This document shows positions 45,988-51,113 of a DNA stretch of 64,000 nucleotides, piece after piece. Numbering within the stretch: the stretch's first letter is position 1; every line of letters starts with the position of its first letter. The notes beneath the pieces were generated by a model. That model had not been told where the DNA came from, ran no database searches, and saw only the letters and a list, made by a program, of their open reading frames with translations. Position numbers and translations under genes: made by a program. The stretch is from Streptomyces echinatus (GTDB lineage: Bacteria; Actinomycetota; Actinomycetes; Streptomycetales; Streptomycetaceae): positions 248,001 through 312,000 of the forward strand of contig NZ_JACHJK010000002.1 in NCBI RefSeq assembly GCF_014203595.1, given 5' to 3'.

Positions 45988-46824
45988 ATGGGCCAGCACC
46001 GCAAAACCAAGCACTACCGGCGGATAGTCATTGCCGCCGCCGCCATGGGCGCCGTGGGCGTGCCGTCTGTCGCCCTGGCCTGTTCCGAATGGCCGAACGG
46101 CACGGAAGGCCAGGCACAGGCCACCGCGCCGAGCGCACCCGGGACGCAGTGGCAGCACATTCCCTGGCATCACCACCGCAACGGCTTGGAGGCTGTCGCA
46201 CCGGGGACCGCCGCGCCGGAGACCGGCGTGCCGCAGCCGGCCGCACCGCGGACCACCGCACCGGCCGAGCCCCGGACCACGGCTCATCCGAGTGCCAGGA
46301 AGAAGGTCCCGGCCCACCGGCCCCAGGGGAACGCCGCCCCGAGCACCCCGAGTGCCCCGAGTGCCCCGAGTGCCACCACCGCCCCGGCCGCCCCCGCGCC
46401 CGCGGCCTCCGCCGCGCCGAGCACCCCGAAGCCCAGCACCACGGCGTCCGGGGTCACCGCGGAGATCCTGCGGCTCGTGAACGCCGAACGGGGCAAGGCC
46501 GGTTGCCGGCCCCTGACCCTGAACTCGACGCTCACCAAGGCGGCGCAGGCCCACAGCGCCGACATGGCCGCCCACCAGAACATGTCGCACACCGGATCGG
46601 ACGGGTCGAACCCGGGCGACCGCATCACGCGCGCCGGTTACACCTGGAGCAGCTACGGCGAGAACGTCGCCTACGGCTACGGCACGGCGGAGCAGGTCAT
46701 GGCGGGCTGGATGGCCAGCCCGGGCCACCGGGCCAACATCCTCAACTGCGGGTTCAAGGAGATCGGCGTCGGTCTCGCGCAGCCGAACAGTTACTGGACC
46801 CAGGACTTCGGCACGGCCCGCTGA
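45988..46824 (+). CDS. Secreted CAP-domain (SCP/PR1) protein
   Basis: A 278-residue secreted protein. A signal peptide (to about residue 31, ending SVALA) is followed by a Pro/Ala/Thr-rich linker with SAP repeats (about 45-155) and a C-terminal CAP domain of about 120 residues: LVNAERGKAGCRPL, HSADMAAHQNMSHTG, SYGENVAYG, SPGHRANILNCGF and the ending WTQDFG. CAP domains bind lipids or glycans, and some are hydrolases; the two cysteines can form a disulfide. The 3' end overlaps the convergent MFS gene by 34 bp. A close relative of this domain is fused to a sigma factor at 48922. Confidence 0.92.
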   Translation: MGQHRKTKHYRRIVIAAAAMGAVGVPSVALACSEWPNGTEGQAQATAPSAPGTQWQHIPWHHHRNGLEAVAPGTAAPETGVPQPAAPRTTAPAEPRTTAHPSARKKVPAHRPQGNAAPSTPSAPSAPSATTAPAAPAPAASAAPSTPKPSTTASGVTAEILRLVNAERGKAGCRPLTLNSTLTKAAQAHSADMAAHQNMSHTGSDGSNPGDRITRAGYTWSSYGENVAYGYGTAEQVMAGWMASPGHRANILNCGFKEIGVGLAQPNSYWTQDFGTAR

Positions 46825-48921: not shown

Positions 48922-50619
48922 TCAGAGCTTGGCGCCGAAGTCCTGGGTCCACCAGGGGCCGCCCGAGCCGTTGTGGACGCCCACGCCGATGTTCTTGAAC
49001 GAGCAGTTGAGGATGTTGGCGCGGTGGCCGGGGCTGTTCATCCAGGAGTCCATCACCGACTGCGGGGTCTGCTGGCCCCGGGCGATGTTCTCGCCGTACG
49101 TGGACCAGCGGTAGCCCGCCGCGGTGATGCGCTCGCCGGGGCCGTTGCCGTCCGGGTCCGTGTGGTCGAAGAAGCCGCGGGCGGCCATGTCGTCGGAGAG
49201 CCCCTGGGCGGCCTTGTCCAGTTGCGGGTCCTCGCTGACCGCACCGCATCCGGCCGCGGCCCGCTCCTTGTTCACCAGCGCGACCACCTGCGCCACCGTG
49301 CCCGTGGGCGCCGGCTGTGCCTGCTGGGTGGGGGTGACCCGCGGGGTGACGCGCACCGTCTGCTGCGCCTGCGGCGTGCCGGTCTTCTTCGCGGGCCGGG
49401 GGCTCTTGGACGGGGCCGGCTTCTTCGAGTGCGACGGGGAAGGCGACGCGGAGGCGGAGGGCGACGACGAGGTCGCGGAGGCGCTGGGTTCCACGAGGTC
49501 CACGACGGGGGCGTTGGCGGCGGGCGCCGCGGTCGCCTCCCTGGTCTCCGGTCCGGAGCCGGGGCCGAGGTACCAGAGGCCGCCGCCCGCCACGCAGGCC
49601 GCCACCACGGCGCCGCCGACGGTCCGGCGCCGGAGCCGCCGCCGTCGCCGCGCCTCGTCGCGAGCGGTCGTACGCCGGCGCGAGGCGCGCAGCCCGACCT
49701 GTCCCGTCGTGGCGTCCGGGCCGCCTTTGCCCGTGCCCGGTCCCCCGGCGCCCATGTCCGCGGCCAGGTGGGCGGTTTCCATGTCCGCCGGGAGCGGGAC
49801 CGCCGAGCCGGCCGCGGTCGTGCCGGTCACGGCGGACCGGGTCGTCGCGAGCAGCGCCGAGGACACCCCGACGAGCGCCAGCCCGGCCAGCAGACCCTCC
49901 GCCGGCAGCAGACCGCTCCACAGACCGCCGCAGCGCACGCAGTCGCGGGCGTGCCGGGCTATCCGCTTGCGCCACAGGGCGGAGGGCAGGCCGTCCCACG
50001 CGGCCAGCACACCGCGCAGTTCCTCGCAGGGGGGCCGGGTGTCCAGCGCCCGTACCACCACGCGGGCCGCCTCCAGCCGCGCCTTCATCCGCTGCACCCG
50101 TACGGCGGTGTGCTGCGGCGAGACCCCCAGGGCCGTGGCGACTTCGGCCCGGGTCAGTTCACCGGCGCACTCCAGCCACCACAGCGAGAGCACCTCCCGG
50201 TCCTCCGGTTCCAGCCAGCGGGTGGCGCGCGCGGTCTCCTGGCGCTGGCCGGACAGCTGGAGCCGGACGATGGTCAGGTCCACGAAGTCGGCGCCGGGGT
50301 CGGCGACATCGGCGGCCTCGTCCACGGCGTCCGGGGCGACCTGCCGGTCCTGCCAGTGCGCCCGCACCCGGTTCATCGCGATGGCCACGAGCCAGGAGCG
50401 AAAGCTCTCCGGGGTCCGCAGGTCGCCGAGCGAGCCCAGGGCCCGGAGCATGGTCTCCTGGACCACGTCGTCGACGTCGACCGAACCGTTCAGGGCGCGC
50501 CCCACGATGTTGTAGACCAGCGGGAGGTAGGCGCTGACCAGGGCGTCCTGGGCCGCCGGGTCCCCCGCCCGGGCGGCGTTCACCAGTGCCGCCGTGTCCA
50601 CCGTGTGCTGTGTCCTCAT
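48922..50619 (-). CDS. Membrane-tethered ECF sigma factor with C-terminal CAP domain
   Basis: A 565-residue fusion. Sigma region 2 is about residues 12-92 (DVDDVVQETMLRAL, FRSWLVAIAMNRVRAHWQ) and region 4 about 130-190 (LEPEDREVLSLWWLE; TRAEVATALGVSPQHTAVRV). Next is a zinc-finger anti-sigma-like motif: C198, then H223-X3-C227-X2-C230. A weakly hydrophobic stretch (238-258), a very basic block (312-332, RRRRRLRRR) and a membrane helix (335-352) follow, then a Ser/Pro/Lys-rich stalk (380-440) and a CAP domain (441-565) ending WWTQDFG. By the positive-inside rule the sigma part is cytoplasmic and the CAP part outside. GGGAAG precedes the ATG. Confidence 0.93.
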   Translation of the reverse strand: MRTQHTVDTAALVNAARAGDPAAQDALVSAYLPLVYNIVGRALNGSVDVDDVVQETMLRALGSLGDLRTPESFRSWLVAIAMNRVRAHWQDRQVAPDAVDEAADVADPGADFVDLTIVRLQLSGQRQETARATRWLEPEDREVLSLWWLECAGELTRAEVATALGVSPQHTAVRVQRMKARLEAARVVVRALDTRPPCEELRGVLAAWDGLPSALWRKRIARHARDCVRCGGLWSGLLPAEGLLAGLALVGVSSALLATTRSAVTGTTAAGSAVPLPADMETAHLAADMGAGGPGTGKGGPDATTGQVGLRASRRRTTARDEARRRRRLRRRTVGGAVVAACVAGGGLWYLGPGSGPETREATAAPAANAPVVDLVEPSASATSSSPSASASPSPSHSKKPAPSKSPRPAKKTGTPQAQQTVRVTPRVTPTQQAQPAPTGTVAQVVALVNKERAAAGCGAVSEDPQLDKAAQGLSDDMAARGFFDHTDPDGNGPGERITAAGYRWSTYGENIARGQQTPQSVMDSWMNSPGHRANILNCSFKNIGVGVHNGSGGPWWTQDFGAKL

Positions 50620-51113
50620 CAGAACTTCCCTGTCCTCGACGCCCGAACGATGCTGTCCGTTACCTGGGAGACCGCCCGGCACGGTGCCGATAACAGTTCT
50701 TCGGAAAATCTTTCGAGAGGGAAGCTCACAGGAGCGGTGCGACGGCCGCAAGGGCGGAGATCACACCGGGCGAGCGACCGACCGAGCCCGGTGCGCCGGT
50801 GTGGTTGCCGCGATCCAGGAACCGGTCGACGTACGGCTCCTCGTGTCCCGCGACGACCGGCGCGGTGCCGGTGTCAACGGCACGAACAGGGCGCCGGGGT
50901 CCCCTGGGCGTCCGCTGTGGCACGGTGGCGTCGAGTTCAGGTCCGGACGCGCACACGGGGGGTGGGCCGGACCGGGCCCGGGCACTCGGGGCGGGCCGCT
51001 CCGGGCCGAGGGTGCCCGCCTCGGTCTCCGGCGGCGTGGCGTGCGCCGGGCCGGTGCGGTCCGCGGCGAGGATGGCGCTCGGCAGCAGGTGACTGGGAGG
51101 CGGGTGTGCGGGT
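50620..51113. other. Divergent region between the sigma-CAP and NAD kinase genes
   Basis: 494 bp with no ORF I can support. Near the sigma gene, on the minus strand, GGTAAC (50664-50659) and CGTCGA (50641-50636) are 17 bp apart, a spacing and sequence like ECF-dependent promoters. A locally AT-rich stretch (GGAAAATCTTTCGAGAGG near 50703) lies upstream. The remaining 350 bp before the NAD kinase gene are GC-rich and featureless. Confidence 0.5.

Follow-up and report, generated by a model that had tools for sequence, protein, structure and literature searches.

A conserved sigma factor–CAP fusion in Streptomyces echinatus as a probable membrane-tethered, self-inhibited and autoregulated ECF system

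We analysed a window of 64,000 nucleotides from Streptomyces echinatus (RefSeq assembly GCF_014203595.1, contig NZ_JACHJK010000002.1, positions 248,001 to 312,000) and focused on one minus-strand gene, whose product joins an extracytoplasmic function (ECF) sigma factor, a zinc-binding anti-sigma (ZAS)-like finger, a predicted transmembrane (TM) helix, a stalk and a CAP domain. We consider it probable that this protein is a membrane-tethered, self-inhibited and autoregulated fused ECF sigma factor with a CAP sensor, freed by proteolysis. The proposed architecture and autoregulation we regard as very likely; proteolytic release, argued by analogy with other systems, is somewhat favoured, and on whether the CAP domain may have a wall ligand, also an argument by analogy, we are evenly divided. 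An earlier sequence-only reading had given the position of the frame exactly without stating its strand; the same coordinates read on the plus strand are a spurious frame, and the true frame lies on the minus strand. The features of the gene and its upstream region are as follows.

48922-50619, minus strand: whole gene, one open frame for a sigma - ZAS - TM - stalk - CAP protein of 565 amino acids
50341-50541, minus strand: sigma-70 region 2, residues 27-93 (PF04542)
50071-50214, minus strand: sigma-70 region 4, residues about 136-183 (TIGR02937 span, sub-threshold PF04545 and helices of the AlphaFold2 (AF2) model)
49930-50028, minus strand: ZAS-like finger, C198-x24-H223-x3-C227-x2-C230 (conserved spacing and a profile match to 3hug chain B)
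49828-49902, minus strand: hydrophobic helix after the finger, residues 240-264 (AF2 helix, hydropathy and a conserved xPAExLLxGLxLV)
49624-49689, minus strand: block rich in arginine ahead of the TM helix, residues 311-332 (translation and charge)
49564-49623, minus strand: predicted TM helix, residues about 333-352 (hydropathy, charge asymmetry and AF2 helix 318-344)
49300-49563, minus strand: Ser/Pro/Lys-rich extracellular stalk, residues 353-440 (composition; predicted local distance difference test (pLDDT) mostly under 50)
48937-49281, minus strand: CAP domain, residues 447-561, with H486, E510, H532 and C458/C539 (PF00188)
50667-50695, minus strand: predicted ECF-type autoregulatory promoter TGTTATC-N16-GTCTCC, with the -35 element at 50689-50695 and the -10 element at 50667-50672

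The fusion is conserved among relatives. The sigma and CAP parts lie in one frame in 75 of the 80 named relatives, with 3 others cut by contig ends and 2 frame-broken, and the layout is kept in sequences down to about 50% identity; the 50 members from the first 41 genomes are also long single frames. Two draft relatives, L309 and L325, are split between frames, which might suggest that a frameshift or misassembly had joined separate genes, a possibility that the sequence-only reading had raised against itself. The homologue counts rule this out, and we give such an artefact a negligible probability. The sigma-finger chassis, used as a query of 268 amino acids, had a strong match in 92 of 121 Streptomyces genomes at E ≤ 1e-40. 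In a search of the whole class, 35 of 395 genomes had it; these belong to 7 of 137 genera, with Streptomyces predominating.

The promoter motif accompanies this family closely. TGTTATC-N16-GTCTCC has a single exact match in the window's 9.4 Mb genome, and that match is the site before the sigma-CAP gene, whose ATG start at 50619 is preceded by GGACAGGGAAG. Upstream regions of the family have TGTTATC-N15..17-GTCTCC in common; the motif, exact or nearly so, precedes the gene in 77 of the 80 named relatives, and the motif or a close variant precedes all 31 CAP and pseudo-CAP (degenerate CAP) chassis genes that were scanned (L063 was outside that scan). The exact motif occurs in 65 of the 92 chassis-bearing Streptomyces genomes, compared with 0 of the 29 chassis-less ones, and a reversed control pattern had 0 matches in all 121 genomes. 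Members with an AbfB sensor (L080-L084) do not carry the conserved motif and may have a different promoter of their own. When 2 mismatches were allowed in the window genome, 70 sites were obtained, mostly of the TGTTCTC type, which are uninformative for targets.

The domains named by the sequence-only reading were confirmed. For the sigma part, a Pfam scan of the whole protein placed Sigma70_r2 (PF04542, E 2.6e-14) at residues 27-93, and TIGR02937 (sigma70-ECF) covered residues 23-183 (E 1.6e-19), a span that shows that regions 2 and 4 are both present. TIGR02937, PF04542 and the AF2 helices together give the ECF composition of regions 2 and 4 only, without region 3. The same scan, which the sequence-only reading had proposed as a check, found the CAP domain significant as well (PF00188, 5.5e-24), and left Sigma70_r4 (PF04545, E 0.06) sub-threshold and zf-HC2 not significant.

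The finger had been proposed from its pattern alone, and the C-x24-H-x3-C-x2-C spacing was found exactly as described; it is identical in 50 of 50 Streptomyces homologues from those first 41 genomes and in 79 of the 80 named relatives. Every subfamily in the alignment retains its four metal-type ligands, together with the WR-A-H-C-C positions around them. A profile of the finger region searched against all PDB sequences had as its top match 3hug chain B (E 0.033), with H-x3-C-x2-C in register; this chain, which the entry text calls a 'probable conserved membrane protein', we take to be RslA, the anti-sigma factor of M. tuberculosis SigL. These invariant ligands and the RslA-like match place a C-terminal ZAS finger within the same chain as the sigma factor, which is one of the features by which ECF52/53-type proteins are described.

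The other such feature, one or two TM helices followed by an extracellular extension, was also found by hydropathy and charge. The chain carries a net charge of +11 in the 25 residues that precede helix 334-352 and of -3 after it, a positive-inside asymmetry also present in most CAP members, and an AF2 helix at residues 318-344, whose end is modelled with low confidence, lies near this segment. A helix between the sigma and CAP parts, after a basic block and before a Ser/Pro/Lys-rich stalk at residues 353-440, is what the sequence-only reading had described; that reading would have been refuted had no helix been predicted there, which is not the case. A second hydrophobic stretch, residues 242-260, follows the finger directly and has similar hydropathy; the helix of which it is part (residues 240-264) probably packs on the sigma factor. 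Since a crossing by this stretch as well would put the arginine block outside, one membrane crossing with the CAP domain outside is, as judged from the amino acid sequence, the most likely topology.

The CAP domain has the CAP fold and the His/Glu/His cavity of its superfamily. C458 and C539 are invariant in the alignment, H486, E510 and H532 are nearly so, and CAP structures were among the top fold matches of the AF2 model; the two cysteines would suit an extracellular disulfide. A match to NF052539 (1.1e-18) was below that model's cut-off. Elsewhere in the same genome, L002 (G000 contig C2, 41491-44841) has two CAP domains behind an N-terminal region that, by eye, is similar to TerD-type stress proteins.

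Relatives carry different sensors on this chassis, namely CAP, degenerate CAP, AbfB, a glycosyl hydrolase catalytic core (Glyco_hydro_cc), a Pel9A-like beta helix and a domain of about 208 amino acids ('unk') that had no significant Pfam match. The CAP, degenerate CAP and 208-amino-acid sensors each form one clade of the chassis tree, with at least 4-5 sensor changes overall. In the pseudo-CAP members L064, L065, L066, L061 and L063, the CAP His/Glu residues are partly lost, and the sigma part, the finger and, where found, the promoter are retained. L085 and L072 are the fusions of a sigma-finger-TM chassis to the Pel9A-like beta helix and the glycosyl hydrolase core, and the extracellular domain of about 208 amino acids occurs on the paralogous chassis L073, L067, L069, L070, L071, L075, L077, L078 and L088.

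Target genes appear to track the type of sensor. The 105 distinct exact sites comprise 59 before chassis genes, 19 before genes for a secreted repeat protein, 19 before alginate-lyase-like genes (PF05426, with a twin-arginine translocation (Tat) signal), 4 before stand-alone CAP genes and 4 before others, so that most sites outside the chassis genes stand before genes for proteins that are secreted or anchored. Alginate-lyase-like targets (7/7, p 1.6e-6) and repeat-protein targets (8/8, p 9.4e-8) occur only in genomes with a 208-amino-acid-sensor paralogue, although both p values come from non-independent genomes of one genus and overstate the significance. The genomes in which the sensors were read include two CAP targets; both fall in CAP-sensor genomes, a number too small to test. 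Three genomes have a target site and its gene directly upstream of the chassis gene and in the same direction, the gene being a CAP gene in G089 and an alginate-lyase-like gene in G104 and G067. The motif-bearing secreted proteins L158, L152, L144 and L099 are about 700 amino acids long, with a C-terminal TM helix, a basic tail and a weak PATR repeat match; their GTG start lies 5-6 nucleotides past the -10 element, and their transcripts are possibly leaderless.

In the mechanism that we propose, the ZAS finger would act in cis and keep the N-terminal sigma region inactive in the cytoplasm; the chain would cross the membrane once, and the disordered stalk would present the CAP domain to the cell wall. 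Gain or loss of a wall ligand by the CAP domain would then lead to regulated proteolysis or, less likely, to a conformational change, and cleavage would free a fragment containing the sigma factor. The freed sigma factor would drive its own gene from TGTTATC-N16-GTCTCC in a positive autoregulatory loop and, in some species, would also drive further genes that encode CAP proteins. An inhibited arrangement is favoured, though not proved, by the AF2 model (mean pLDDT 71.8, with the sigma, finger and CAP parts mostly about 90; predicted template-modelling score (pTM) 0.44): its sigma part best resembles SigW bound by RsiW (TM-score 0.79-0.80, normalised by target length), compared with much lower values, about 0.34-0.40, for RNA polymerase-bound sigma-H chains.

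Several observations weigh against this proposal. Confidence in the AF2 model is low between domains, and AF2 may yield a compact sigma arrangement even without any inhibitor. The hydrophobic stretch next to the finger may itself span the membrane, as a second helix. The association between motif and chassis (Fisher 1e-12) is uncorrected for relatedness among non-independent genomes of one genus, so its significance is overstated, and some other co-occurring factor could be the one that recognises the motif. The zf-HC2 profile matches only 3 of 29 members, with a best E of 0.28. This weak score would also fit a finger that is a relic beside a sigma factor constitutively active at the membrane, a reading that we find very improbable given the retention of its ligands and neighbouring positions in every subfamily and the inhibited-like arrangement in which the sigma part is modelled.

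A switch without proteolysis is less remote, though we still think it unlikely. The sigma factor would stay on the membrane and respond to a conformational or a metal or redox change in the finger, with the CAP domain serving only as a wall anchor; the invariant zinc-type ligands would suit this, as would the lack of a protease partner encoded nearby, and redox sensing by a ZAS finger has a precedent in RsrA (PMC4960319). Yet with its long stalk and one TM helix the protein resembles substrates of regulated intramembrane proteolysis (RIP), and the data on IutY and SCO4117 favour cleavage in fused ECFs. The CAP domain could also be output as well as sensor, cleavage shedding an active CAP ectodomain and the freed sigma factor mainly making more of the same protein, an idea that is compatible with our proposal and that we rate as somewhat unlikely. 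The exclusive exact match at the gene's own promoter, the retained CAP His/Glu residues and the additional sites of CAP-sensor members, which mostly precede stand-alone CAP proteins, speak for it; against it, these residues are lost from the pseudo-CAP subgroup, in which sigma factor, finger and promoter persist, and an exact search would miss weaker promoters.

Fused sigma and anti-sigma factors have precedents. The statement in the sequence-only reading that the two are separate proteins in known systems was wrong, as the actinobacterial groups ECF48, ECF52 and ECF53 have been described as ECFs that carry a fused ZAS, TM helices and extensions, and activation of ECF52/53 is expected to occur by proteolysis (PMC8999054, PMC5826349). 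In the published description, ECF53 proteins have a C-terminal fusion with a ZAS finger, one or two TM helices and a long extension (PMC8999054), and some ECF52/53 members bear glycosyl hydrolase or carbohydrate-binding domains (PMC10766802). Such extensions are also found on the present chassis in relatives (AbfB, Glyco_hydro_cc and the Pel9A-like beta helix); they fit the ECF52/53 description, and the protein therefore most likely belongs to ECF53, as assigned by the published description of the group. SCO4117 of S. coelicolor, the studied ECF52 member, affects development and antibiotics, as known from a knockout and truncation data (PMC5826349). Its order of sigma factor, finger, TM helix, Pro-rich stalk and extracellular domain is the same as here, but its sensor is a carbohydrate-binding NPCBM-type module instead of CAP. 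The S. echinatus genome holds an SCO4117-like paralogue, L344 (G000 contig C33, about 26.3 kb, minus strand), with sigma factor, finger, TM helix, Pro-rich stalk and NPCBM, and BLASTP of the sigma-CAP protein against L344 found no similarity; ECF52 membership was rejected on these grounds.

Outside the actinobacteria, IutY of Pseudomonas putida (ECF243) has a sigma factor and a membrane anti-sigma factor in one chain, as here, with proven Prc/RseP proteolysis (PMC8999054), but lacks the ZAS-stalk-CAP layout. DalA, a CAP-like relative, binds peptidoglycan (PMC10470522); it and YkwD have a homologous CAP domain and, unlike the present protein, are envelope proteins that stand alone, with no sigma factor attached. 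The SigW-RsiW pair of Bacillus subtilis, which the AF2 sigma part fits, consists of two separate proteins. RsiW is a single-TM ZAS anti-sigma factor that is cleaved by RIP. The layout is known, but the literature that we searched contained no report of a CAP-sigma fusion, this promoter or its targets; the use of CAP as a sensor, the promoter and how nearly unique it is, and the pairing of sensors with targets appear to be new.

Among Streptomyces fused ECFs there is one studied example, SCO4117, without a firmly established promoter. A sharply defined promoter that occurs once in this genome is a ready reporter and makes the release of a tethered sigma factor directly testable, the sensor-target pairing suggests what each sensor responds to, and the naturally exchanged sensors make this a compact one-gene sensor chassis. 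We also propose, tentatively and with some doubt, a one-protein, one-promoter loop, in which the only strong target in many species would be the gene itself and the output more CAP, with sensors swapped together with targets and with sigma factor, finger and, in most branches, promoter held constant.

On one side of the gene, the window contains a stand-alone CAP gene, transporter genes and AraC-type regulator genes, and on the other side NAD kinase-like, peptidyl-prolyl isomerase and thioesterase genes; these names were taken from the translations, with Pfam checking of CAP only. Outside the 11 closest loci, the latter three neighbours do not recur. We found no conserved partner gene, such as a protease or a second anti-sigma factor, and no neighbour common to more than 5 of the 31 CAP-type loci, which indicates that the gene acts as its own unit; together with the conserved fusion, this agrees with the sequence-only reading's suggestion of a possible one-protein system. 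When the surroundings of the genome's other CAP genes were scanned with a promoter matrix, the best score was 12.9, against a self-site minimum of 16.0, so that none had a self-like site and the CAP gene at 45988-46824 (plus strand) is not a predicted target. That gene, which has no motif, encodes a stand-alone secreted CAP protein of 278 amino acids (PF00188, 2.1e-25); it is convergent with the sigma-CAP gene at a distance of about 2.1 kb and is present in the loci of 9 of the 80 relatives, all of them among the closest.
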